Source: Actinomycetes bacterium (GTDB lineage Bacteria; Actinomycetota; Acidimicrobiia; Acidimicrobiales; Acidimicrobiaceae). From it: 32,925 nucleotides of DNA. Below are positions 9,964 to 25,455 of this stretch, one piece after another; positions within the stretch are counted from its first letter, which is position 1; every line of letters begins with the position of its first letter. The position numbers were made by a program, and so were the translations under genes. The notes under the pieces were generated by a model, which saw only the letters and a program-made list of their open reading frames with translations, was not told where the DNA came from and did no database searches. The stretch is from assembly GCA_021784785.1 (NCBI GenBank), contig JAJYHJ010000078.1, positions 1-32,925 on the forward strand, written 5' to 3'.

Positions 9964-10725
9964 TTATTTAAGTCCTAAAAGATCGCTCTCAGCTGCAAGT
10001 ATATACTGCAGAGCGGACGCTAAAAACTCTGGAAGCAGCGCAAGGGACAGCATCATCAGTCCCAAAGACAGAAGTATCTGTAGCGGGAAAACAAAGGTAT
10101 ATGCGTTGAGCTGAGGTGAGACCTTTACTAATATTCCTACTATTACCTGAGATAGGAAAAGCACCGAAAGTATCGGTGCTGCGATCTGAATCGACGCTCC
10201 CATTACAACAGAAACACTTTTTACAATTACCACCATTCCAAGCTCTGGGGATCCAAGGACCTTTGTTCCATCAAGAGTAAGAAGACCTTGGACGACTACC
10301 GTATCTGCACCGGATATGAAAAACATCGTCATCCACAACAAACCATAGAGCTGACCAGTAACAGGGGATTGATTTAGTGAAAGTGGGTCTAACGAAGGTG
10401 GCGGTGAAAATCCTCCAAAAAGTCCGACGGCTGAGCCGGCTGATGATCCCAAGTTGATAAATACATTTGTGACATAACCAACGATCCAGCCCACGACTAG
10501 CTGCGCAAGCATGGCTCCCATCAGCCCAAAAGTCGTCGTGGGGAGAGTCTCAACTCTTGCCATATGCGACGCGCCTGCTATCGCCAATGCCATCGCGAAC
10601 GATACCCGCACAGCCCTAGGAATCGCAGCTAGAGCAAACGGCTGCGCCACAAAGACAAATCCAAAGGTACGTGCCATAACCAAGAGAAAACCAGTTAGCA
10701 GTGCCGGTTGGAGTGAGATCTCCAC
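9964..10725 (-). CDS. fliR: Flagellar export gate protein FliR
   Basis: FliR is a membrane component of the export gate, forming with FliP and FliQ the helical protein-conducting core. The 253-residue product is rich in hydrophobic helices and shows the family pattern at residues ~10-40 (ARTFGFVFVAQPFALAAIP) and a conserved Gly-Phe-rich loop (LFGGFSPPPSLDP). The start is GTG 10725, whose G is shared with the fliQ TAG stop (TAGTG). A longer in-frame extension to 11028 reads through fliQ and is spurious. The stop is 2 bases before flhB. Confidence 0.94.
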   Translation of the reverse strand: MEISLQPALLTGFLLVMARTFGFVFVAQPFALAAIPRAVRVSFAMALAIAGASHMARVETLPTTTFGLMGAMLAQLVVGWIVGYVTNVFINLGSSAGSAVGLFGGFSPPPSLDPLSLNQSPVTGQLYGLLWMTMFFISGADTVVVQGLLTLDGTKVLGSPELGMVVIVKSVSVVMGASIQIAAPILSVLFLSQVIVGILVKVSPQLNAYTFVFPLQILLSLGLMMLSLALLPEFLASALQYILAAESDLLGLK

Positions 10726-11000
10726 TAGCCACCACCAAGCAACTTTGGAATCTCGCCATACAACGTAGTAGTAAAGGTAATTAACTGTCCAATCATCCAA
10801 TGCCCCGTGACAAAAAGCACAAGCGCTATTGCGGCAAGCTTTGGAAGAAACGACAAAGTTGCTTCCTGGATTTGAGTCAATGTCTGGAAAAGCGATACCA
10901 GAAGACCTACTGCTAAAGCAGCTCCCAAAACTGGGCCAGCCAACTCGAACGCTAGATATATGGCCTGGCCAGCGATTTGAATAACAGAACTTTGGCTCAT
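10725..11000 (-). CDS. fliQ: Flagellar export gate protein FliQ
   Basis: At 91 residues with two membrane helices (about 14-38 and 49-72), this has the length and layout of FliQ, including the conserved loop LVSLFQTLTQIQEATLSFLPK between them. It forms the export core with FliP and FliR. The ATG at 11000 overlaps the fliP TGA (ATGA), and its TAG overlaps the fliR GTG, so fliP-fliQ-fliR are translationally coupled. Confidence 0.96.
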   Translation of the reverse strand: MSQSSVIQIAGQAIYLAFELAGPVLGAALAVGLLVSLFQTLTQIQEATLSFLPKLAAIALVLFVTGHWMIGQLITFTTTLYGEIPKLLGGG

Positions 11001-11710
11001 CGATAGCTAACCAACAATGTATGAACAACCAAAGTCCATCCGTCCACTAGGACGAATAATAAAATCTTAAACGGCAACGATATAAGAGTCGGTGGGAGCA
11101 TCATCATACCCATAGACATAAGGACCGAAGCGACCACAAGATCAATGATCAAGAACGGTATAAATATGACAAATCCAATGACAAAGGCGCTATAGAGCTC
11201 TGAGAGAACAAAAGCTGGAACCAACGCTGCCATTGATACGTCTTGAACCTTCGGCGGCTTGTCGCCTGTGACTTGAGTAAACATCGCCAACTCAGGGGTT
11301 CGAGTCTGTTTTAGCATCCACACCTTAAGAGGAGTCTGAGCCGCGTCATAGGCTTGCACCGCGGAGATCTTTCCAGCCATGTACGGCTTTACGGCCACCC
11401 GATCTATCGTTGACAGAGTCGGCGCCATTACGTACAGAGATATAAATAGAGCCAACCCTGCAAGAACTTGGTTCGGCGGAACCGCCGACAGTCCAAGTGC
11501 ATTTCTAGTAAGCGAAAGCACTACAACAGACCGAACGAAACCCGTCATCATAATTAATAGAGAAGGTGCAACCGCTAACAGCGACAACACGATAATAATG
11601 ACGACTGACTCCGTAGGTTTTGCAAACGAACCCGATAGATTGACGTTGACCGATGGAAGTGCACCGGCGGCTCCAAGAACCAACGAACTAGTAGGTGCCA
11701 TGGATGGCAT
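10997..11710 (-). CDS. fliP: Flagellar export gate protein FliP
   Basis: This 237-residue membrane protein is the central subunit of the export gate. It contains the family hallmarks: the early helix block SLLAVAPSLLIMMTGFVRSV, the pattern MLKQTRTPELAMF in the periplasmic domain, and the C-terminal pair of helices with FIPFLIIDLVVASVLMSMGM. The N-terminus (~25 residues) is hydrophobic but without a clear cleavage site; FliP is often made with a signal peptide. A good Shine-Dalgarno, AGGGAGG, precedes ATG 11710. Confidence 0.97.
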   Translation of the reverse strand: MPSMAPTSSLVLGAAGALPSVNVNLSGSFAKPTESVVIIIVLSLLAVAPSLLIMMTGFVRSVVVLSLTRNALGLSAVPPNQVLAGLALFISLYVMAPTLSTIDRVAVKPYMAGKISAVQAYDAAQTPLKVWMLKQTRTPELAMFTQVTGDKPPKVQDVSMAALVPAFVLSELYSAFVIGFVIFIPFLIIDLVVASVLMSMGMMMLPPTLISLPFKILLFVLVDGWTLVVHTLLVSYR

Positions 11711-11729: not shown

Positions 11730-12182
11730 CTAGGCTCTAGTTGACTTAACTTTTCTACTATCCGCAAGCGCCATCCATGAATGCAACGGATTTCTACCAA
11801 ATAAAGGGGGTCTCCGTTCCCCCCACTTCGAGACCAAAATGGTCTCGGCGTCTTCCACGTTACGAAGATCTATACTCTCGACTTCGTCAAGATCAACGGC
11901 TTGGTCTAGCTCCTCAACGACAGTTTCACTCAAGGTGTTCATACTTCCTTGCGTAACGCCTACCAAGAGACGCTTACTACCAAAGCGTACAACGTACAAA
12001 GTCTGGCCCTTGCCGAGCGGAGTTCGGCCTTCGACTAGCGCTCCCACTGAGGCTGGAGAGCGTCCGTTTCTCCTTCCGAAGCTTTTAGTACTTCGAGTAA
12101 TAATTTTTGACAGACCTAGGACGATCGCCACAACCAGAACTAGTGAGATTAGGGATTTTGCAACAAGCGCTAGCTCGGACAC
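11730..12182 (-). CDS. fliO: Flagellar biosynthesis protein FliO
   Basis: FliO is a poorly conserved membrane chaperone for assembly of the FliP-FliR gate. The 150-residue product has one N-terminal membrane helix (~8-27) and then a cytoplasmic domain with the usual FliO pattern of a basic stretch, an LGKGQTLYVVRFGSKRLLVGV strand pair and a variable tail. Identification rests on this layout and on its place between fliN and fliP. GTG 12182 shares one base with the fliN TAG stop (TAGTG). Confidence 0.88.
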   Translation of the reverse strand: MSELALVAKSLISLVLVVAIVLGLSKIITRSTKSFGRRNGRSPASVGALVEGRTPLGKGQTLYVVRFGSKRLLVGVTQGSMNTLSETVVEELDQAVDLDEVESIDLRNVEDAETILVSKWGERRPPLFGRNPLHSWMALADSRKVKSTRA

Positions 12183-12523
12183 TAATTCGCCTCCGACGAA
12201 TTTTGAACCATCTCTTCTTTGGCTACAACTTCGGTAATTCGCACACCGAACTCATCGTCTACTACAACGACCTCGCCTTTTGCGACCAACGTGCCGTTGA
12301 CGAGGACGTCGACCGCGGCATTTGCGGAGCGGTCGAGTTCAATCACATCTCCAGCTGCTAGTGCTAAGAGACCTCCAACTGTCATCTTTGCCCTTCCAAG
12401 TTCTACCGCAACCTGCATCTCTACGTTCTTTAGGACAGATAGTGGTAGATTCCGGTCTGCACCAAAGCGTTTTTGAGCCTCTCTGGTCTGTGTTTGCTCC
12501 ATTACATCCATCGCGTCTTCCAC
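12182..12523 (-). CDS. fliN: Flagellar motor switch protein FliN
   Basis: FliN forms the bulk of the switch C-ring and helps dock the export ATPase complex. The 113-residue product is a single SpoA (surface presentation) domain preceded by ~30 variable residues; the family pattern VEMQVAVELGRAKMTVGGLL and LDRSANAAVDVLVNGTLVAKGE are clear. It is a plain FliN, not the larger CheC-fused FliY. GTG 12523 follows fliM by 2 bases and has GGAGGAG from the end of fliM as ribosome binding site. Confidence 0.96.
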   Translation of the reverse strand: MEDAMDVMEQTQTREAQKRFGADRNLPLSVLKNVEMQVAVELGRAKMTVGGLLALAAGDVIELDRSANAAVDVLVNGTLVAKGEVVVVDDEFGVRITEVVAKEEMVQNSSEAN

Positions 12524-12525
12524 AA

Positions 12526-13389
12526 CTACTCCTCCACAATTAGAACTGCTAACCTGCTACCGACTTTTGTAGGTCGTCCTCGATAGAGATGCACGCCGTT
12601 TACGATCACATCCAAAGGATCTGACACTCGATGACCAAGGTTTATTACATCTCCTGGTTCCATCTCAACGATCTCTCCTGACGTGAGAACGGTCGGCTTG
12701 AAAAGAACCTCCACATCTACCTCTACATCTTGAAGGCGTGTCTCCAATCCTTGATGGAACTCCTCACTTTGCTTTTCCACAACTGCATGTCCACGACTTC
12801 CGAGACTTTCGACGATTGGACGTAGAGCCGGGAAAGGAAAGACCAAAGACATAGTCTGACTACTTAGCTCTCCGATTGTTACGTCTAAGTTCACTAAAAA
12901 GCACATCTCATTCAATGGGATTCCTTGAATAAACTGGAGTGCCTGTTCGGTGCCTAGCCTCTCAAGTCGTGTCTCAATTATGGGTGAAAATGCGCTTGTC
13001 AACTGGGGCAATACCTCTCCCAAGACTCCTAAAATTATCGTCTGCTCGATGTCGGTTGGAACTCGAGCCTCAGGTTCTTGATCACCGATACCACCAAGGC
13101 GTAGGTCAACGAGACGAAGTGCAAGTGCCGCAGGAAGGAAAAGAACTATTTTTGAAGGCAGAGGAGTCAGATAGAACAACGACACTGACCCAATCTCTGG
13201 AAGTTCACCCAAGACCTCCTCCCAAGTCTTTTGAGAGGTCGATGCCATCTCTATCCGAGATGGCACTCGCAGATTTGCTCCCAACACAGTGGAAGCCGGT
13301 CTAGCAAAGCTCTCAAGCAGCATCTCAATCGATCGAGCTTGCGTACGTTCTAATGTCTTTGGCTGACGAAAGTCAAAGGACTTCGTCAT
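12526..13389 (-). CDS. fliM: Flagellar motor switch protein FliM, lacking the N-terminal CheY-binding motif
   Basis: FliM is the middle switch protein that normally binds phosphorylated CheY. The body is intact: FDFRQPKTLERTQ at the start of the middle domain, the GGxG-type LRLGGIGD, and a C-terminal SpoA domain resembling FliN. Missing is the N-terminal LSQxEIDALL-like segment that binds CheY-P; the protein begins almost at the middle domain. ATG 13389 is chosen because a sigma-28-like promoter (13435-13461) would start transcription near 13428, leaving a ~40-base leader. The only longer start, GTG 13428, would add 13 residues, still without the motif, and a stop closes the frame at 13459-13461. 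A 115-base gap separates it from fliL. Confidence 0.95.
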   Translation of the reverse strand: MTKSFDFRQPKTLERTQARSIEMLLESFARPASTVLGANLRVPSRIEMASTSQKTWEEVLGELPEIGSVSLFYLTPLPSKIVLFLPAALALRLVDLRLGGIGDQEPEARVPTDIEQTIILGVLGEVLPQLTSAFSPIIETRLERLGTEQALQFIQGIPLNEMCFLVNLDVTIGELSSQTMSLVFPFPALRPIVESLGSRGHAVVEKQSEEFHQGLETRLQDVEVDVEVLFKPTVLTSGEIVEMEPGDVINLGHRVSDPLDVIVNGVHLYRGRPTKVGSRLAVLIVEE

Positions 13390-13434
13390 CCTGCTTTTAA
13401 TTGCTGACTTTTCTCCACCCGGACCCACAGCATT

Positions 13435-13461
13435 ATATCGACAGCTAATAACCGCGCTTTA
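13435..13461 (-). promoter_or_regulatory. Sigma-28/sigma-D-like promoter upstream of fliM
   Basis: On the - strand the fliL-fliM gap reads TAAA (13461-13458), a 15-base spacer, and GTCGATAT (13442-13435). This matches the Bacillus sigma-D consensus TAAA-N15-GCCGATAT at all but one base. Transcription would start near 13428, about 40 bases before fliM ATG 13389. The overlapping TATAAT could also serve a housekeeping sigma factor, though no good -35 is seen. Confidence 0.6.
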
Positions 13462-13542
13462 GATAGTTCGAGCTTGAATCTTCAGGCTCCTCCACCTCGA
13501 ACACTTCAAGTGGTCACGCTGGTCAGAAGACGTCACATTACG

Positions 13543-14025
13543 TCATTGCATGATGAAGTTAGTAAAGTAAATCTGTTGAATCTGTGGCTTCCCAGGATCC
13601 ACCGTAAAGAGTTTGTTGAGTGTCGCTATCAGTTGAGTTGCAAAAGCTCTCTTTCCTGACGCCGGGAGCAGCGCATTGTACGACCAACTTGAAAAGGTTT
13701 CGATGACGTCATTCATGATCTCAGGAGTTTGCGCGCTCAAAGGAGTAGTTATAGTGCCGCCTTTGAACTGAAACGTCATCTGTGCCTGTACCACATGTCC
13801 ATCGTTCAGGTTTGTCGTGACCGGTCCGAAGCTGTAAACTACAGGTGGCAGTTTTGCAACGGACAGCTTTGACTTAGAAGTTGCGGGTCCAAGCAGAAAG
13901 TAGTAGGCAGCCGCCGCACCAATGAGGATTAGTGGGACCATCAAAATGATAATCTTCTTCTTCCCACCTTTTTTTCCCTCTCCATTATCTTGGGTCTTCT
14001 TTGCATCCTTAGCGGCCTTAGCCAT
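13543..14025 (-). CDS. fliL: Flagellar basal body-associated protein FliL
   Basis: FliL is a single-pass membrane protein that surrounds the stator and supports torque. The 160-residue product has a Lys-rich cytoplasmic N-terminus (1-24), one membrane helix (~25-43), and a periplasmic domain with the FliL pattern YSFGPVTTNLNDGHVVQAQM near residues 64-84 and a C-terminal amphipathic stretch ending in IYFTNFIMQ. It lies between motB and fliM, its usual place. Confidence 0.94.
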   Translation of the reverse strand: MAKAAKDAKKTQDNGEGKKGGKKKIIILMVPLILIGAAAAYYFLLGPATSKSKLSVAKLPPVVYSFGPVTTNLNDGHVVQAQMTFQFKGGTITTPLSAQTPEIMNDVIETFSSWSYNALLPASGKRAFATQLIATLNKLFTVDPGKPQIQQIYFTNFIMQ

Positions 14026-14069: not shown

Positions 14070-14882
14070 TCAGTTAACTCCAACGGGAACGGTCGTAGAG
14101 GTGGAAGTCGTTACAACCGTATTCAGAATTACTACATCCACTCGACGATTCATCGACATGTTCCCCGGGTTGGTATTAGGCACTATGGGTCTTGTAGCAC
14201 CATAGCCAGTCGCAGATAACCTAGAGGGATTAATACCGTCTACTTTGTCCAGCCTTAAAAGCACATTTACTGCCCGAACCGCCGATAGCTCAAAGTTGGA
14301 ACTATACGGACCGCCAACAATGGGCTGATTATCTGTATAACCCTCTATCGATAACTGATTCGGTAATGGCGCAACAACTTTAGCGATGGTGTCTACAACT
14401 TCATCACCTTGATTACCCAAAGAGGCCGAATCCGTTGAGAAAAATGCCTGATCCGAAAGGATCCTTATCACGACACCTCTCCGCTCCTGAACAACTTGAG
14501 CGTCTTGAGAGAGACCCTGACTCGCGAGTGCGGCGGTAACTTGCTGCGCTATCTGAGATTCATTAGGAATCGTCGGTTTAGTAGGGGTAGAACTAATGTT
14601 TACACTTGGGATAGGTGGTCCTAGAACATTTCCAGGATGAGAGACCAACGAGTTATTCTGTAAGATACCCGTATTACCTTTGAGGATGGAGTTAATGGAG
14701 TTGTTTGAAAAGCTCTGAATAATGCCCGTCTTGAACTCCACAAACTTTTTCAAACTTATCGAACTCATCGAAAAAAGGATGATAAACAAAGCCAACAGCA
14801 GTGTGATCATGTCTGAGTACGTGAGGAGCCAACGTTCTGTGTTCTCTGCTTCTCCTCCATCTGTTTCGCGACGACGGGACAA
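14070..14882 (-). CDS. motB: Flagellar stator protein MotB
   Basis: MotB forms the proton-driven stator with MotA and anchors it to peptidoglycan. The 270-residue product has a short cytoplasmic N-terminus, one membrane helix starting with LLTYSDMITLLLALF where Asp24 is the essential ion-binding residue, a linker, and a C-terminal OmpA-like domain (~150-260) with IEGYTDNQPI and SAVRAVNVLLRL typical of peptidoglycan binding. The start is the rare TTG 14882, 2 bases after the motA stop; no ATG or GTG lies close in frame. Confidence 0.95.
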   Translation of the reverse strand: MSRRRETDGGEAENTERWLLTYSDMITLLLALFIILFSMSSISLKKFVEFKTGIIQSFSNNSINSILKGNTGILQNNSLVSHPGNVLGPPIPSVNISSTPTKPTIPNESQIAQQVTAALASQGLSQDAQVVQERRGVVIRILSDQAFFSTDSASLGNQGDEVVDTIAKVVAPLPNQLSIEGYTDNQPIVGGPYSSNFELSAVRAVNVLLRLDKVDGINPSRLSATGYGATRPIVPNTNPGNMSMNRRVDVVILNTVVTTSTSTTVPVGVN

Positions 14883-14884
14883 CT

Positions 14885-15682
14885 CTATGCCGCCTTTTTC
14901 TTCAACGCTTCTCGGGCAGCTTCAACAACGGCTCGTTCTTTAGGGGCTAGGTAAGTAAGAAGCTGTTGTTCAAGCAATCGAGGGCTGGCGCCAGCTTGGA
15001 TCGCAAGTATCCCATCGACGATCAGGTACCTCGTTCTAACCTCAATATCTGAGACGCGATGCAGCTTGTTCTCGATAGGAAGCCAAAAGACATTAGCCGT
15101 CATCACGCCCCACAATGTCGCAGTAAATGCACCGGAGATAGCTGGACCAAGAGAATTCGGCGACGATAGATTCCCAAGAACGTGAATCAAGCCCATGATT
15201 GTACCCAAAATTCCAATGGTCGGAGCAAAGCCGCCCATATCTTTAAAAAACTTAGCACCCGCTTTATGGCGAGCTTTCATCGAATCAATCTCACCATCTA
15301 AGAGGTCTCTAATCCTCTCGCTATCGATGCCGTCCACTGCAAGCTGAATGCCTTTTTTTAAAAAAGGGTCTTCGATGTCCTTAGTCGCAGCTTCAAGAGC
15401 CAAGACACCCTCTTTCCTGGCAATCTCCGCGAAACGAACCATCTCTTGAATGCTTTCATCAGGAGATGCCACCTTTGCCAAAATTGCTGACTTCATGGCA
15501 CCTACGATCATAGAGATGTCTTTCAATCGATACCCAGCTAGCGAGACGCCGAACGTTCCACCCAACACCAAAAGTATCGACGACGGAGCGACTAAAGATG
15601 CCGGGTTCCCGCCATCCATTATCATCGACACCAAGATCGCAACTAACGCTACGCCGATACCTATGGGGGTTGAAAAGTCCAT
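14885..15682 (-). CDS. motA: Flagellar stator protein MotA
   Basis: This 265-residue membrane protein has four hydrophobic segments and the MotA signature in the third, GGFAPTIGILGTIMGLIHVL, with the conserved Pro that takes part in torque generation. The cytoplasmic loop between helices 2 and 3 is rich in charged residues that would contact FliG. ATG 15682 has GAGGAGG about eight bases upstream and lies 1 base after flbD. flbD-motA-motB-fliL form one block. Confidence 0.96.
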   Translation of the reverse strand: MDFSTPIGIGVALVAILVSMIMDGGNPASLVAPSSILLVLGGTFGVSLAGYRLKDISMIVGAMKSAILAKVASPDESIQEMVRFAEIARKEGVLALEAATKDIEDPFLKKGIQLAVDGIDSERIRDLLDGEIDSMKARHKAGAKFFKDMGGFAPTIGILGTIMGLIHVLGNLSSPNSLGPAISGAFTATLWGVMTANVFWLPIENKLHRVSDIEVRTRYLIVDGILAIQAGASPRLLEQQLLTYLAPKERAVVEAAREALKKKAA

Positions 15683-18036: not shown

Positions 18037-19368
18037 TCAAGCCCAGATATCTATCACATGCTGCCCTCTCCCAAGTGCAGACAAACTAGAAGGTCTTTGC
18101 GGATGCGTAAGTCCCGACACTGGCGTCGGACTAGAAAGAGAACCATTGAAAAACTCCTTTTCTGTCTTACCGCCGTTCGTACCGAAAGAACCAAGGTTCA
18201 AAGAGACTTTCACTGCCAAAGCAGCCTGTAGTTCTTTAGCTAGTTGTCCCATAGCAGAGTTAAGTTGGCTACCTAACTCTGCCGACGTACCTTCCATCTT
18301 CACCGTCAGCGAACCTTCCACACCGCTCAGATGAATATTGAGGACCCCAAGATCCTTCGGGAAAATCCGCAGATGGATGGTCGAAGGAAGCGAGGGGTTA
18401 GAAGATATGTGCGCAGCCACAACGTTGGCAATTTGATCGACAGAGACATAGCTCGCTCCACCAACTGAGATGTTACTGTTCGAACTCGTCGTTGCCGTGA
18501 TGGTAGAAAAAGCACCAGGAGCGTTCGGTAAAATCGCAGCGACCTCTTGTACCTGATTGAAAGCTGGTCCCGTGTTCGAAGAACTCTTAGCTAAGGCCGT
18601 CGTCACCTGGGTCTTCGCCGTCTCTACGCTTAAATTCGATCCTCCTTTTCCGTTTGAGGTGCTTTCGGCAATAACTGCAGACACAACACTCCTAGGCTCC
18701 TGAAAAGGCTGGGGTTTGAAGGTGGTATTAGTAGTTGGCAGTGGTTCCAAGGAAACCGAAGCTCCGTTCTGCTGCGAAGTGATACTAGGCAGCGGATCCT
18801 GTCCCATGTTTCCTTTTTGCAAGCTCTGAACAGACAAGTTAATCTGACTAGTTTCAGAGCTGTTCAAGGAAGTAAGTTCGGGACTCGACGCCAGAACTTT
18901 CGAATTGGTCGCCGAGTTAGATGGAGCACTTTGATCTATCGCCACAGTTGGCTGGCCATCTATAGGCGTAGTCACCTTCTTTTTAACTACGATATCGCTG
19001 GTCGTTTTTGAAGAAGACACGAGAAACGTCGTCGGGGTATCCGTCCCTGCGTTAACCTGCGCCAGAGCTGGAAGCGGAGATGAAATGGTCGCTCCAGCGG
19101 ACTTCATTACTTGAAGGCCGGCACTCGCCACATCTACTTGACCACCTAACTTTGACTTGATCTTCAGACTGGTTGGGTCGCTCTGTTTATTAGACCGCTG
19201 CGATGCTGTTTGTTGCGAAGTTACGGAATTTGAAACTACAGTTACCTGGGCAACCACCTCAAGAAGGGCGTTGAAGCCTGGGTCTTTAGCGGTCTTTCCT
19301 TTGTTCGGCGAAACGCCCGCCTCGGCGTTCGCTACCGTTGAACTTTTTGAACTAGGCGATACGGGCAT
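18037..19368 (-). CDS. fliK: Flagellar hook-length control protein FliK
   Basis: FliK measures hook length and triggers the FlhB switch. The 443-residue product has a long Ser/Thr/Gln-rich, low-complexity N-terminal part, fitting the extended ruler domain, and a C-terminal domain (~320-400) with the family pattern IHLRIFPKDLGVLNIHLSG and a following helix of about 35 residues. ATG 19368 shares its A with the stop of the upstream hydrolase gene (TGATG). Confidence 0.9.
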   Translation of the reverse strand: MPVSPSSKSSTVANAEAGVSPNKGKTAKDPGFNALLEVVAQVTVVSNSVTSQQTASQRSNKQSDPTSLKIKSKLGGQVDVASAGLQVMKSAGATISSPLPALAQVNAGTDTPTTFLVSSSKTTSDIVVKKKVTTPIDGQPTVAIDQSAPSNSATNSKVLASSPELTSLNSSETSQINLSVQSLQKGNMGQDPLPSITSQQNGASVSLEPLPTTNTTFKPQPFQEPRSVVSAVIAESTSNGKGGSNLSVETAKTQVTTALAKSSSNTGPAFNQVQEVAAILPNAPGAFSTITATTSSNSNISVGGASYVSVDQIANVVAAHISSNPSLPSTIHLRIFPKDLGVLNIHLSGVEGSLTVKMEGTSAELGSQLNSAMGQLAKELQAALAVKVSLNLGSFGTNGGKTEKEFFNGSLSSPTPVSGLTHPQRPSSLSALGRGQHVIDIWA

Positions 19369-20486
19369 CAGTTGCTCCCTTGCATGATAGACATCACAGA
19401 CGTGACATAGTTTTGCGTCTGAGGATAAGGTGGTATTCCTCCAAAGCTTCGCACTGCCCCATCACCTGCGTTATAAGCTGCGAGAGCCAACGGAACAGAA
19501 CCAAAAGTCTGAAGTTTTTGCGCAAGTAAGTAGGCTGCTCCATATATCGCCTGGGTTGGATCCATAGGATTTACGCCGATTGAACTAGCAGTCTGTGGCA
19601 TAATCTGCATCAGACCTTGGGCCCCTGCACTTGAGACAGCGTTCGGGTTGAAGTTGGACTCCACCTGTGCTACCGCCTGTAGCATCCCTTGTGGAAGTCC
19701 ATATATGCTCGTCGCAGCCGCAAACGTCGACGCTAAAGTTGTAGGTCCATTTCCAGTGGCGTTGGTCGCATTTGATGGTGTTCCAGGATTACTAGGCGCT
19801 GAGACCTGTACGATTGAGGTCGGGTTACCTACATTAGTTATGGAAACGGTCTGCCCCGTAGTAGGCGCGTCGATCATTTGACCGTTACCAATATAGATGC
19901 CAACGTGATAAGCTGGTGAGCCATAAAATACCAAGTCTCCTGGTTGTGCTTGTCCAAGCGACGGAACTGGTGTACCAATTTGGCTCTGTTCTGCTGCGGT
20001 TCTCGGAATTGCTACGCCTAGATCGGAAAACACATGCTGAGTAAATCCAGAACAGTCAAACCCCGTCTTTGGAGAAGTTCCACCCCATAGGTATGGAACT
20101 CCTAGATACTTCTCGGCATCAGCTATCACGCTTTGACCAAACGAGACCTGACTACCGTAGTTTGATGGAGTACTAACGGGCGACGTAGAGCTGGGTGATA
20201 CAGTTCCCGTCGTTGTTGCGACAGGCCAAGACAGCAATGCGGGCGAGTTACTAGTTGAAGCGGAACTTGCGCTAACTGGACTTGTTTGTGTTGAGATACC
20301 AGTCGTCTGACTTGGAATATTCCCGAAGAGAATCTGGCTCATCTCGTTTTGGATCTGAGCCATTACGGTTGAGAACTGATCGACACCTTGCGATATGGAC
20401 GTGGGCGTAACTCCTTGTTGCGCCAACTCCGAGAAGCTTTGCGACAAGTTTTGTATAGAACTAAGTACCGCGCTAACCGACGACAC
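19368..20486 (-). CDS. Two-domain peptidoglycan hydrolase (NlpC/P60 + SLT), likely FlgJ-like role
   Basis: The 372-residue protein joins two wall-cutting domains. Residues ~117-210 are NlpC/P60 (C40 peptidase) with catalytic Cys145 in DCSGF and His194 in YHVGIYIGNG. Residues ~255-365 are a lytic transglycosylase (SLT) domain with catalytic Glu276 in VESNFNPNA and the GAQGLMQIMP and ALAAYNAG motifs. The first ~60 residues resemble an export/rod-type segment and there is no Sec signal peptide, suggesting export through the flagellar apparatus, as for FlgJ. GTG 20486 overlaps the fliJ end by 14 bases, and the stop overlaps fliK. It probably opens the wall for rod growth; the role is inferred from context. 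Confidence 0.9.
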   Translation of the reverse strand: MSSVSAVLSSIQNLSQSFSELAQQGVTPTSISQGVDQFSTVMAQIQNEMSQILFGNIPSQTTGISTQTSPVSASSASTSNSPALLSWPVATTTGTVSPSSTSPVSTPSNYGSQVSFGQSVIADAEKYLGVPYLWGGTSPKTGFDCSGFTQHVFSDLGVAIPRTAAEQSQIGTPVPSLGQAQPGDLVFYGSPAYHVGIYIGNGQMIDAPTTGQTVSITNVGNPTSIVQVSAPSNPGTPSNATNATGNGPTTLASTFAAATSIYGLPQGMLQAVAQVESNFNPNAVSSAGAQGLMQIMPQTASSIGVNPMDPTQAIYGAAYLLAQKLQTFGSVPLALAAYNAGDGAVRSFGGIPPYPQTQNYVTSVMSIMQGSN

Positions 20487-22218: not shown

Positions 22219-22901
22219 TCTCTCACTCCACTCAGTTCATCAAGTACTTCTTTGATCCGATCCGTTGCCGTCTTTAACTGAAGGTCCAATGTTGTGGGGC
22301 CTTCTTCGACCACCACCCCGCCCGGTTCTACCGTGGCGTCTGAAACAACTTTAAATGTGGAACTTCTCCCGAACTCCTTCCCGTTCAGAACTTCAGTGAC
22401 GAACGAGAGCATCGTTGGATTTACCCGAATGGCAACTTCTCTACCTACCGGAACCTCTTGGAGCGCCTCCGTCAACACGATCTCAAGTCGTTTTTGCTCA
22501 AGGTCTGGCTCCATATGCATAACGCTCTTTGCGATCTCAAAGGCAAAACTAGCGAGATCGCTTACTTTTGCCTCATAGCCCCTAGCGACCATCGACTCAA
22601 GCTCAGAGATCATCGATCCAAGTTGTCTGAGTCGTTCCTTCAACTCCTCTTCTAAGTGCAAGAAACTTCTTCTAGCAAGATCTTCGCCTTCCTTCGCACC
22701 GTCATCAAACCCGTTTTGATAAGCTTTTTTGAGGCGCTCAGCAAGAAGATCCTCAACGGATTTCGAGGATGTCCGGTGTGAGAGATCAGCTACCAGTTCT
22801 TCAACGGGCAAGAACTCTAGTCGGATCGGATCTTTCGAGCCTACACCCGAACCTTGTCGGGCAGAGTCCCCAAATATTGCTTCTACCCAAGAACCAGCCA
22901 T
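22215..22901 (-). CDS. fliH: Flagellar assembly protein FliH (ATPase regulator)
   Basis: FliH binds and restrains FliI and docks it at the C-ring. The 228-residue product has the FliH pattern: a Gly-spaced helix YQNGFDDGAKEGEDLARR (residues ~66-83), a central coiled coil, and a C-terminal domain ending with VEPGGVVVEEGPTTLDLQL, the usual PGG...DxxL motif. ATG 22901 shares its A with the fliG stop (TGATG). Confidence 0.92.
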   Translation of the reverse strand: MAGSWVEAIFGDSARQGSGVGSKDPIRLEFLPVEELVADLSHRTSSKSVEDLLAERLKKAYQNGFDDGAKEGEDLARRSFLHLEEELKERLRQLGSMISELESMVARGYEAKVSDLASFAFEIAKSVMHMEPDLEQKRLEIVLTEALQEVPVGREVAIRVNPTMLSFVTEVLNGKEFGRSSTFKVVSDATVEPGGVVVEEGPTTLDLQLKTATDRIKEVLDELSGVRD

Positions 22902-23911
22902 CAGTTAACCATCTCCTCGTTTGAGCGAGATAAGGTTATCTCCCCTGAAGCTTCAAGTTCACGAACTACTCGAACCACCGCCGCCTGTGCCGCTTCGACT
23001 GTGGAGAGACGAACTGGGCCGAGCGTATCTATCTCTTCAACAAGGTCCTCCGCCGCCCTTTCCGACAGGTTCCGAAGAACTAAATCTCTCTCGCCGTCAG
23101 GAATTCCCTTTAGCGCGACAGCTAGATCTTTCGGCGCAATCTGACGAAGAACTCGTTGTAGAGTTCTATCATCCAGCGATAGAACATCCTCGAAAACAAA
23201 CATCTGACTACGAACTCTGTCAGCTAGCTCCGGATCTACGACGTCGAGATCGGACAAGATACGTTTTTCAGTACCCTGATCGACATTGTTCAAAATTTCA
23301 ACTAAAGACTGAAGACCTGAGCGCGCTGAGGTAGGTCCAGATTTAGAGACTCCAGCTAGCTTTCTCTGTAGAATTTGAGCCGTCGTCTCTATCACGCTTG
23401 GATCAACCCTTTCTAACATTGCGATACGCCGTGCTATTTGGGCTCTCATTTCCTCAGGCAGAGCCGCCATAATCTCAGCAGATGCGTCAGAGGGTATATA
23501 TGACATGATCACAGCTACCGTTTGAGGATGTTCATCTTGCAAGAACGATGCGACCTGATATGGTTCTACGTGAGCGATAAAGCCCAGCGGATTACCAGTA
23601 CTGCCTCCTGTAAACTGCTCAAGAATTTCATCTGCTTCTTTAGGAGACAGTCGAGCAGAAAGAATCTCCCTTGCCGCGTCCACTCCACCTTGGCCGACGC
23701 TTTGGACCGCAACCACCGAGTCCACAAACTCTCCCATGATCTCAGATATCTGATCCTTGTCAAGGTTGGGCAGATTGGCGATCTCTAGGGTTAGCGCGAC
23801 AGCCTCAGTCTCAGTCATTGCTCTTAAGACTCGAGCAGCGAGGTCCTTCCCAAGTTGCACTAGCACAGCGGCTGCCTTTTGGGGGCCTGTTAGTTCAACT
23901 TGCCTTTTCAT
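22901..23911 (-). CDS. fliG: Flagellar motor switch protein FliG
   Basis: FliG is the rotor protein that meets MotA and mounts on FliF. From ATG 23911 the product is 336 aa, normal length, with an N-terminal FliF-binding domain, the middle-domain EHPQTVAVIMSY motif (contact with FliM), and a C-terminal torque domain with VFEDVLSLDDRTLQRVLRQI and its charged residues. An in-frame TTG at 23932 would extend it by seven residues, but ATG 23911 overlaps the fliF TGA (ATGA) and has GAGG at good spacing. Confidence 0.97.
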   Translation of the reverse strand: MKRQVELTGPQKAAAVLVQLGKDLAARVLRAMTETEAVALTLEIANLPNLDKDQISEIMGEFVDSVVAVQSVGQGGVDAAREILSARLSPKEADEILEQFTGGSTGNPLGFIAHVEPYQVASFLQDEHPQTVAVIMSYIPSDASAEIMAALPEEMRAQIARRIAMLERVDPSVIETTAQILQRKLAGVSKSGPTSARSGLQSLVEILNNVDQGTEKRILSDLDVVDPELADRVRSQMFVFEDVLSLDDRTLQRVLRQIAPKDLAVALKGIPDGERDLVLRNLSERAAEDLVEEIDTLGPVRLSTVEAAQAAVVRVVRELEASGEITLSRSNEEMVN

Positions 23912-25455
23912 CGTGGCCTCGAACTCATCCAAATTCGGAGCAACTTTGCTACGTCTTCCGGTTGCTGATCTATAAAGTCAAACACCTCTTCGGCGATAAA
24001 CTCTTCATGTTTTGGCATAGAGATCGCCGGAACAGACGGTCCGGCATTGAGTGCTGCAAGATTCAGAGGCTCGGTGTCCAGCTCTCGTACGAACAGATCC
24101 TCCCGCTCCTCCGACTTTGAGGACCTAAGTAGCAGAAATATTACGATCAGTATCGCCAGAGCCAAAGCAACCGTTTTGGCTAACGAGAATATCGATGATA
24201 GCTGCGAAGCGCTTGACGAAGTGGCCGATAGAGCCTGGGTTTGTGCGGCAAAAGGCATCTTTACAACAGAGATCGTGTCTCCCCGTGCCGCAACTAGACC
24301 GGCCGCTGCGCTCACCAAAGACTTGACCGAAGCAAGTGAAACTCCCTTAACCTTCGAGTCCACGAGCACCGCAACTGATAGTCGTTGAATTTGTCCTGGT
24401 GCCTGTTTCACTGTTTGGTTGACCTGTCCTATCGCGTACGAATTTGTAGTCTGGGTTTGTGAGTAGTTTGAGTTCTGATTTCCCCCAGTAGCGGGTGGGG
24501 TAATAGTACCGAGCACCCCTCCTGGTGCCGTACCAGTTCCTGTATAAGTCTGCTTTGTTGTAGAGCTCTGAGTAGGTGCCGTCACTGGCGTGCCTTTTGG
24601 AGTAGTTTGGATACTTTGAGAGTTGGTCGTTGCCTGATTGAAGTTAAGTTGCGCCGCTACTTTAACGGCCACATGATTCGGACCTAGAACATTTTGCAAC
24701 ATTGACGTCAGCGACGCGCTCAGTTGAGTATCAAACTGAGAAGTCGCACCAGAGTTAATAGAAGCCGTGTTGTTAAATCCAGGAGCAGCCAAGACGTCCC
24801 CGTTCTGGTCTACCACCGTCACGTCACTTGCAGACATATTAGGAATAGAGCTTGCAACGAGATGGACGATCGCTTGAGTCTGCGAAGGAGAAAGACTCAC
24901 TCCCGAAGCTAGAGTCACCAACACTGAAGCTGAAGGAGTTTGATTCTGCGAGATTGCAAAGACGTCCGTTGGCGGGAGAGCTAGATTTACTTGCGCACTT
25001 GTAACGCCTTGAATCGCCTCAATCGTCGTGGCAAGTTCCCCTTGCAGAGCTCTTTGATAGTCGGCCTGCTGCGTAATTTGAGATGACGTAATACCAACTT
25101 TATCTAGAAGTGAAAGGCCAACCGTCGAGTTCTGAGGAAGGCCCGCCTGTGCCATGTCTATACGCTCTTGATAGACCTCCGACTGCGGAACCATGATCGT
25201 CGACCCTCCACTTGCAAGTTGGTAGGGAACGCCAGCTGTTGTTAATTTCTGCGTAATCGCCCCCGCATCTGACGCAGAAAGGTTGGTAAACAACGGAGCG
25301 TAACTCGGAGATGAAGTAACTTTCATGAGAAAGATAGAACCCACGACGACTGCCGCTACCCCTATAATCGTAAGTACCTTTTGGCCTGAAGTAAATCCAG
25401 ACAGAAATTTGTTTACAGCTTTTTGGGCGTCCTCGACAGACTTAGATAAAGCCAT
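23908..25455 (-). CDS. fliF: Flagellar MS-ring protein FliF
   Basis: FliF forms the membrane ring on which the flagellum is built. The 515-residue product has two membrane helices (about 26-46 and 422-443) around a periplasmic region with ring-building motifs (APLFTNLSASDAG, QRALQGELATTIEAI, VTVVDQNGDVL), and a C-terminal tail, FIAEEVFDFIDQQPEDVAKL, that binds FliG. ATG 25455 has AGGAG upstream; the gene overlaps fliG by 4 bases. Confidence 0.97.
   Translation of the reverse strand: MALSKSVEDAQKAVNKFLSGFTSGQKVLTIIGVAAVVVGSIFLMKVTSSPSYAPLFTNLSASDAGAITQKLTTAGVPYQLASGGSTIMVPQSEVYQERIDMAQAGLPQNSTVGLSLLDKVGITSSQITQQADYQRALQGELATTIEAIQGVTSAQVNLALPPTDVFAISQNQTPSASVLVTLASGVSLSPSQTQAIVHLVASSIPNMSASDVTVVDQNGDVLAAPGFNNTASINSGATSQFDTQLSASLTSMLQNVLGPNHVAVKVAAQLNFNQATTNSQSIQTTPKGTPVTAPTQSSTTKQTYTGTGTAPGGVLGTITPPATGGNQNSNYSQTQTTNSYAIGQVNQTVKQAPGQIQRLSVAVLVDSKVKGVSLASVKSLVSAAAGLVAARGDTISVVKMPFAAQTQALSATSSSASQLSSIFSLAKTVALALAILIVIFLLLRSSKSEEREDLFVRELDTEPLNLAALNAGPSVPAISMPKHEEFIAEEVFDFIDQQPEDVAKLLRIWMSSRPR

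Follow-up and report, generated by a model that had tools for sequence, protein, structure and literature searches.

The fliM locus

The window, that is, the whole stretch of 32,925 nucleotides analyzed here, corresponds to one contig (C57) in the genome of an acidophilic iron bacterium of the Acidimicrobiaceae (G000; assembly of 2.39 Mb in 183 contigs, 88% complete). Its minus strand carries the flagellar genes fliE, fliF, fliG, fliH, fliI, fliK, flgD, flgE, flbD, motA, motB, fliL, fliM, fliN, fliO, fliP, fliR, and flhB. The fliM gene (12526..13428, minus strand) starts with GTG and encodes a protein of 300 aa, being flanked by fliN (12182..12523, minus strand) on one side and by fliL (13543..14025, minus strand), motB (14070..14882, minus strand), and motA (14885..15682, minus strand) on the other. 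FliG, the switch partner of FliM, is encoded at 22901..23932 (minus strand) and has all three of its domains (N, M, and C). A fused FliQ-FliR at 9964-11028 was considered and dropped; a separate 91-aa ORF at 10725-11000 occupies that place. Also, between a fliJ-like gene and fliK, the region 19368-20486 encodes a protein in which NlpC/P60 and transglycosylase SLT domains are joined, which may serve to open the cell wall for the rod.

The middle domain of FliM (12802..13377, minus strand) is matched by PF02154 over its full length, beginning at profile position 1 (residues 18-209; 104.3 bits, above the curated cut-off of 27), and the GGIG of the FliG-binding GGxG motif is present. The C-terminal SpoA domain (12532..12738, minus strand) passes the PF01052 cut-off of 23.8 with 65.4 bits over residues 231-299. 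The equivalog TIGR01397 gives 173.4 bits, below its cut-off of 219.6, and its alignment is limited to profile positions 27-317 of 320; since it aligns only from position 27, the missing part of FliM is the N-terminal segment. This bears out the claim of an earlier note on this DNA that FliM lacks its CheY-P-binding motif, as do the scans of all frames, where LSQxEIDALL was found neither in the FliM protein, nor in the upstream open frame, nor in the other frames. Instead of the usual FliM_N of ~45 residues, the protein has a basic tail of 17 residues, MGPGGEKSAIKSRMTKS (13378..13428, minus strand), directly followed by FDFRQPK and the middle domain. The fliL-fliM intergenic gap (13429..13542, minus strand) holds no EIDALL-like peptide in any frame, and the three-frame scan thus agrees with the earlier statement that no alternative frame before fliM encodes the motif.

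Regarding the start of the gene, the nearest in-frame stop lies ~30 bases upstream of the GTG, and position 13461, given as the end in the earlier note, is this stop and not the start. In support of the GTG, 17-residue tails that can be aligned (xGSGGEESxxKxKxTKS) occur in four genomes from the same genus, two of which lack the internal ATG of FliM.

Absence of the docking motif in the family and the phylum

A three-frame motif scan of the 400 bases upstream of the FliM domain was positive at 26 of 30 control loci from the phylum. At the fliM locus of relatives, where a motif would have refuted the earlier note, the identical scan found it in none of the 28 Acidimicrobiaceae loci with a complete 5' end, one of them showing a chance ELGPMV only; two family loci (L063 and L064), whose 5' ends are cut by contig ends, were excluded from this count. 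Among the motif-less loci are those of the single-contig genome taken as Acidimicrobium ferrooxidans and of contigs taken as Ferrithrix thermotolerans DSM 19514. Of 60 FliM genomes sampled across the phylum, where motif calls come from the three-frame scan and the remainder of the sample was judged by eye, the motif is canonical in 27, divergent in 5, and absent in 28. As far as sequence can tell, the loss of the FliM_N docking peptide is a real, clade-wide feature, being neither an error nor peculiar to this locus.

A FliM tree of 69 rows, which took in the complete phylum sample of 60 and 9 of 28 further family genomes with FliM, was computed without the N-terminus by a quick method, several of its branches being long. 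It separates a clade of 34 rows (27 canonical, 4 divergent, and 3 without motif) from another of 35 (34 without motif and 1 divergent). On this tree, the motif label requires two changes for canonical against none, or three if divergent forms are counted as motif, a number as low being reached in 0 of 500 shuffles. Moreover, a divergent remnant, MPLAEIEGLIAQ (G062), sits within the motif-less clade, which suggests that the motif was lost and not gained.

Three loci of family f18 (L030, L032, and L132, from G295, G047, and G243) form a separate motif-less FliM group whose tails share VFTIK(R/K)H...HLN, and their genomes look like a second, separate loss of the motif; among this trio, CheA is found in G295 only. 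In genus g243, FliM occurs without CheA in three of nine genomes (L057, L060, and L061), the start of FliM being diverged (DFxRGDVIER).

Chemotaxis genes of the genome and its relatives

The earlier note had reported no che genes in the window. For the window ORFs that were scanned this stands, with none in a set of 20 (E<=0.01) nor in a set of 7, but it does not extend to the genome: a search for cheA and cheY elsewhere located both on contig C50, in the order flgK-flgL-fliW-cheA-cheW-cheB-cheR-cheY-cheX-CXL, with flgN there too. The idea that chemotaxis input might be missing is contradicted by this complete che operon, by the one chemoreceptor present in the assembly, and by the way cheA tracks fliM in the family. 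CheA occurs in 27 of 30 FliM-positive family genomes against 1 of 12 FliM-negative ones, and in the phylum sample in 18 of 28 motif-less against 26 of 27 motif-bearing genomes, G236 and G189 being scored as CheA-positive from weak matches. All three FliM-positive family genomes without CheA belong to genus g243. In 14 of the 20 family loci that were fetched, cheA is immediately preceded by a FliW match; the che contig of G129 terminates inside cheB.

Some further features accompany these genes. The cheY of the genome itself is broken by a 10-N assembly gap (L079:1083-1458), and TrbC-, TraG-, and VirD4-like conjugation genes lie immediately upstream of flgN (G000:C50, L034:1809-7220). A glycosyltransferase gene (PF00535; L079:2458-4473) follows CXL, and a blast relative stands behind CXL in most family che loci. 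On another contig (G000:C61:288-587), a PilZ protein is encoded in a 239-aa frame, a size that we take to fit a YcgR-like brake, and a similar one is found in G418:C48, from a genome of the same GTDB genus taken as Ferrithrix thermotolerans.

The two CheW domains of its CheA (two PF01584 stretches) and this gene order fit class F5, whose chemoreceptors are of the 38H type. Here and below, what is drawn from PMC7355467, PMC9126983, PMC10746217, and PMC11528121 concerns the sections of these papers covered in this analysis. The change from F1 to F5 has been assigned to an ancestor shared by Acidimicrobiia, Nitriliruptoria, and Actinomycetia, and F5 to the position of dominant array in their flagellated classes (PMC10746217); that paper names FliM twice, in the Methods. 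We infer that the other motif-less families correspond to these classes. F5 is also found in Caulobacter and Azospirillum (PMC10782961), and therefore membership in F5 does not by itself imply a FliM without the motif.

A changed CheY face

The CheY of this operon, CheY1, has Leu at the position of Tyr106 in Escherichia coli. Among 26 CheY1 sequences this position is L in 23, T in 2, and V in 1, and D12, D13, D57, T87, and K109 are kept in 26 of 26. CheYs from four motif-bearing and three divergent-motif loci, which represent few families, have F at position 106 in seven of seven. Over the residue sets that we take to define the two faces, mean column conservation in CheY1 is 0.94 for the phosphorylation face and 0.72 for α4-β5-α5, the values for the seven comparison CheYs being 0.92 and 0.96. 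In E. coli, the α4-β5-α5 face of CheY binds the P2 domain of CheA too; therefore, the change of this face in CheY1 need not reflect FliM.

In the genome itself and in two relatives (G418 and G080), CheY1 is the only strong stand-alone CheY match, weaker ones being found in a 138-aa frame of G418 and in a 160-aa frame of G080. Some relatives from outside the genus have a second CheY, with Tyr at position 106, between cheW and cheB. One Leu row, taken as the G407 fusion described below, was sorted into the CheY2 set by the identity threshold.

CXL, a second CheX-like protein next to CheY1

The last gene of the operon, here called CXL, neighbors cheY1 or cheX. By its profile model, it is present in 15 of 28 motif-less genomes of the phylum sample, 0 of 27 canonical, and 0 of 5 divergent ones; among CheA-positive genomes the numbers are 14 of 18 motif-less against 0 of 29 others. 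G344 gives no CheA match and carries pieces of CXL at the ends of contigs. In the family, it occurs in 24 of 42 genomes, being 24 of 28 with CheA and 0 of 14 without. These CXL and CheA counts are not independent and may represent one inherited event on the FliM tree. Outside the family, CheY1 and CXL are adjacent in 8 of 12 fetched motif-less loci, several of the other four stopping at contig ends, and in 0 of 8 loci with a motif or a divergent motif. Moreover, in G407 the two proteins are naturally fused (L126:3479-4402; 307 aa), the CXL model matching residues 157-300 with E 7e-25, ExxN being kept and Leu standing at position 106.

The Pfam CheX family (PF13690) gives CXL 12.3 bits, below its cut-off of 27, and neither an NCBIfam match nor, up to E 10, a PDB sequence match was found. 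The predicted model of CXL (pLDDT 85.3) retrieves FliM, CheC, CheX, and FliY in Foldseek with E 3e-5 to 9e-4, and structural alignment (VIA) gives Z 9.7-13.0, the best matches being FliM middle domains: 149 residues align with the FliM middle domain 4gc8 (Z 13.0, rmsd 3.4) and 146 with the CheX-CheY complex 3hzh (Z 11.3, rmsd 3.6). The predicted structure thus assigns CXL to the CheC/CheX/FliM-middle fold. From the ExxN motif, whose E99 and N102 are invariant in 20 of 20 CXL sequences, CXL is probably a CheY-P phosphatase. A peptide of CXL, TEVEGLIQKS, was considered as EIDALL-like and rejected, as it is not conserved in relatives and its motif score lies in the noise.

Discussion

In Salmonella, CheY binds FliM_N by its α4-β5-α5 face, where residue 106 is stacked against the helix of FliM, whereas α1 together with the loops around the phosphorylation site (L2, L6, L8, and L10) contacts FliM_M, with L6 and L8 also contacting FliG_M (PMC11528121). 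FliM_N is regarded as no more than the high-affinity first step of a two-step binding of CheY-P (PMC9126983). In canonical motors, CheY-P is caught on FliM_N by its α4-β5-α5 face and in a second step passes to the groove between the FliM and FliG middle domains, which it binds by its phosphorylation-site face. Since FliM has no docking peptide here, the CheY-P signal must enter the motor by another route; with the docking segment absent, the earlier suggestion that the input enters elsewhere was right in spirit.

Our preferred reading, for which we put the chances just short of even, is that the FliM_N step has gone while the motor remains under chemotactic control, and that CheY-P would dock in one step on the FliM-middle/FliG-middle groove. 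This would apply to Ferrithrix and further Acidimicrobiaceae as well as to a sister group of actinobacterial families, where CheY1 and its CheX-fold partner CXL would have replaced an older F1-type system with FliY. Because the FliM helix is gone and the α4-β5-α5 face of CheY is changed, with the second face kept, one-step docking would be the simplest reading. A. ferrooxidans is described as motile, and the genome taken as this species (G080) has a motif-less FliM, CheY1, CheX, and CXL all present; no printed report of switching in any of these species was found, and switching of such a motor would be a prediction of this model. On the other hand, CheA is absent from 10 of the 28 motif-less phylum genomes, and therefore part of the motif loss could be plain decay.

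A different role for CXL is conceivable by analogy, although we consider it rather unlikely: CXL, or a CheX-CXL pair, would bind CheY1-P and deliver it to the C ring, taking the place of FliM_N in soluble form. In line with such a carrier are the restriction of CXL to motif-less genomes (15 of 28, against 0 of 32 with a motif or a divergent motif) and, in the family, to those with CheA (24 of 28 against 0 of 14), the position of its gene beside cheY1 or cheX, the single 307-aa protein that it forms with CheY1 in G407, and a predicted fold closest to FliM middle domains; moreover, archaeal CheF, the link between CheY-P and the archaellum, engages CheY on its phosphorylation-site face (PMC9126983). 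Nonetheless, the invariant ExxN (20 of 20) fits a phosphatase, which could sit at the docking site but would not have to, CXL is absent from 4 of 28 CheA-positive family genomes and from 4 of 18 CheA-positive motif-less phylum genomes (several of them fragmented), and its co-occurrence may reflect one inherited event. The fuller proposal, that CXL is a bacterial counterpart of CheF docking CheY1-P on the C ring and arisen with the F1-to-F5 switch, we hold to be unlikely.

The signal could also act via FliN, as the earlier note had considered, or via another protein whose docking peptide is too diverged for the motif PSSM. In favor of a FliN route, a review describes E. coli pull-downs in which a CheY-FliM_N fusion associated with FliN (PMC7355467), and divergent motifs do score low in the PSSM (7.6 for LDTEQIAALVEA and -2.4 for MPLAEIEGLIAQ), therefore weak forms would escape it. 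However, the FliN of the window is a 113-aa protein with a SpoA domain only, devoid of a CheC-like domain and of the docking motif, the N-termini of family FliN proteins are short and unlike one another, neither a second SpoA protein nor FliY was found in the genome, and Salmonella CheY makes no FliN contact (PMC11528121). The search for EIDALL-like peptides in FliN and other proteins, also raised in the earlier note, likewise came back empty: over the window and C50 the best PSSM scores are 9.1-9.7, within noise, true motifs scoring 28.9-34.8 and the best of 25,000 random windows 6.9-19.4, so no substitute peptide relocated to FliN, FliL, MotB, FliG, or a che protein stands out. Taken together, a route of this kind appears improbable.

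To a similarly small degree of probability, the che operon would have another output and the motor would be one-way or tuned only in speed, for example, by c-di-GMP through a PilZ brake. Flagella without CheA, in 10 of 28 motif-less phylum genomes and 3 of 30 family genomes, and the PilZ proteins of G000 (two), G418, and G080 are in line with this possibility. Nonetheless, cheA is grouped with flgK-flgL-fliW and is missing from 11 of 12 FliM-negative family genomes, and the two CheW domains of CheA and the order AW..BR match F5, dominant in the flagellated classes named above (PMC10746217). Finally, that a frameshift, a wrong start, or an assembly error conceals the motif in this fragmented assembly (183 contigs, 88% complete) has a vanishing probability: an upstream frame restoring it was looked for and not found, and the upstream stop together with the absence of the motif in 28 of 28 family loci, those taken as F. 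thermotolerans DSM 19514 and A. ferrooxidans included, rules out a frameshift or a missed upstream start.

Current models of the switch include the tether as a set component (PMC7355467 and PMC11528121), and in 2022 the EIDALL motif was ascribed to FliM and FliY "of all motile bacteria" (PMC9126983), a statement with which the loss described here contrasts. In the open-access literature searched, no published FliM devoid of the docking motif was found for a lineage with chemotaxis retained. Bacteria of a natural clade that have flagella and che genes yet lack the tether would allow its purpose to be addressed directly, and also whether the FliM-middle/FliG groove alone can receive CheY-P, with CXL as a named candidate partner that has a natural CheY fusion.

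Comparison with known systems

The protein encoded at 12526..13428 is still a FliM; what is new is a modified version of a known switch, along with a candidate for a further partner of it. With canonical FliM (PF02154 and PF01052, TIGR01397; EIDALL in FliM_N) it has in common the middle and C-terminal domains, GGxG, and the neighbors fliL, fliN, fliO, and fliP, whereas the FliM_N docking helix is absent, a 17-residue tail stands in its place, and TIGR01397 remains below cut-off. The che system has in common with the F5 class of Actinobacteria (PMC10746217) the two-CheW CheA and the order A-W-B-R, CheX being present here too; the covered sections of that work make no mention of the FliM motif, of CXL, or of the altered CheY1.

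As for its partner, CXL has in common with the CheY-P phosphatases CheX, CheC, and FliY a predicted fold and the ExxN motif, but it falls below the Pfam CheX cut-off and has no NCBIfam or PDB sequence match. Finally, archaeal CheF provides an analogy for a dedicated CheY-P partner in a motor devoid of EIDALL, a role conceivable for CXL too; however, CheF is built of PH domains and a helical tail, whereas CXL would have the CheC/CheX/FliM-middle fold, and its binding to the motor is putative.
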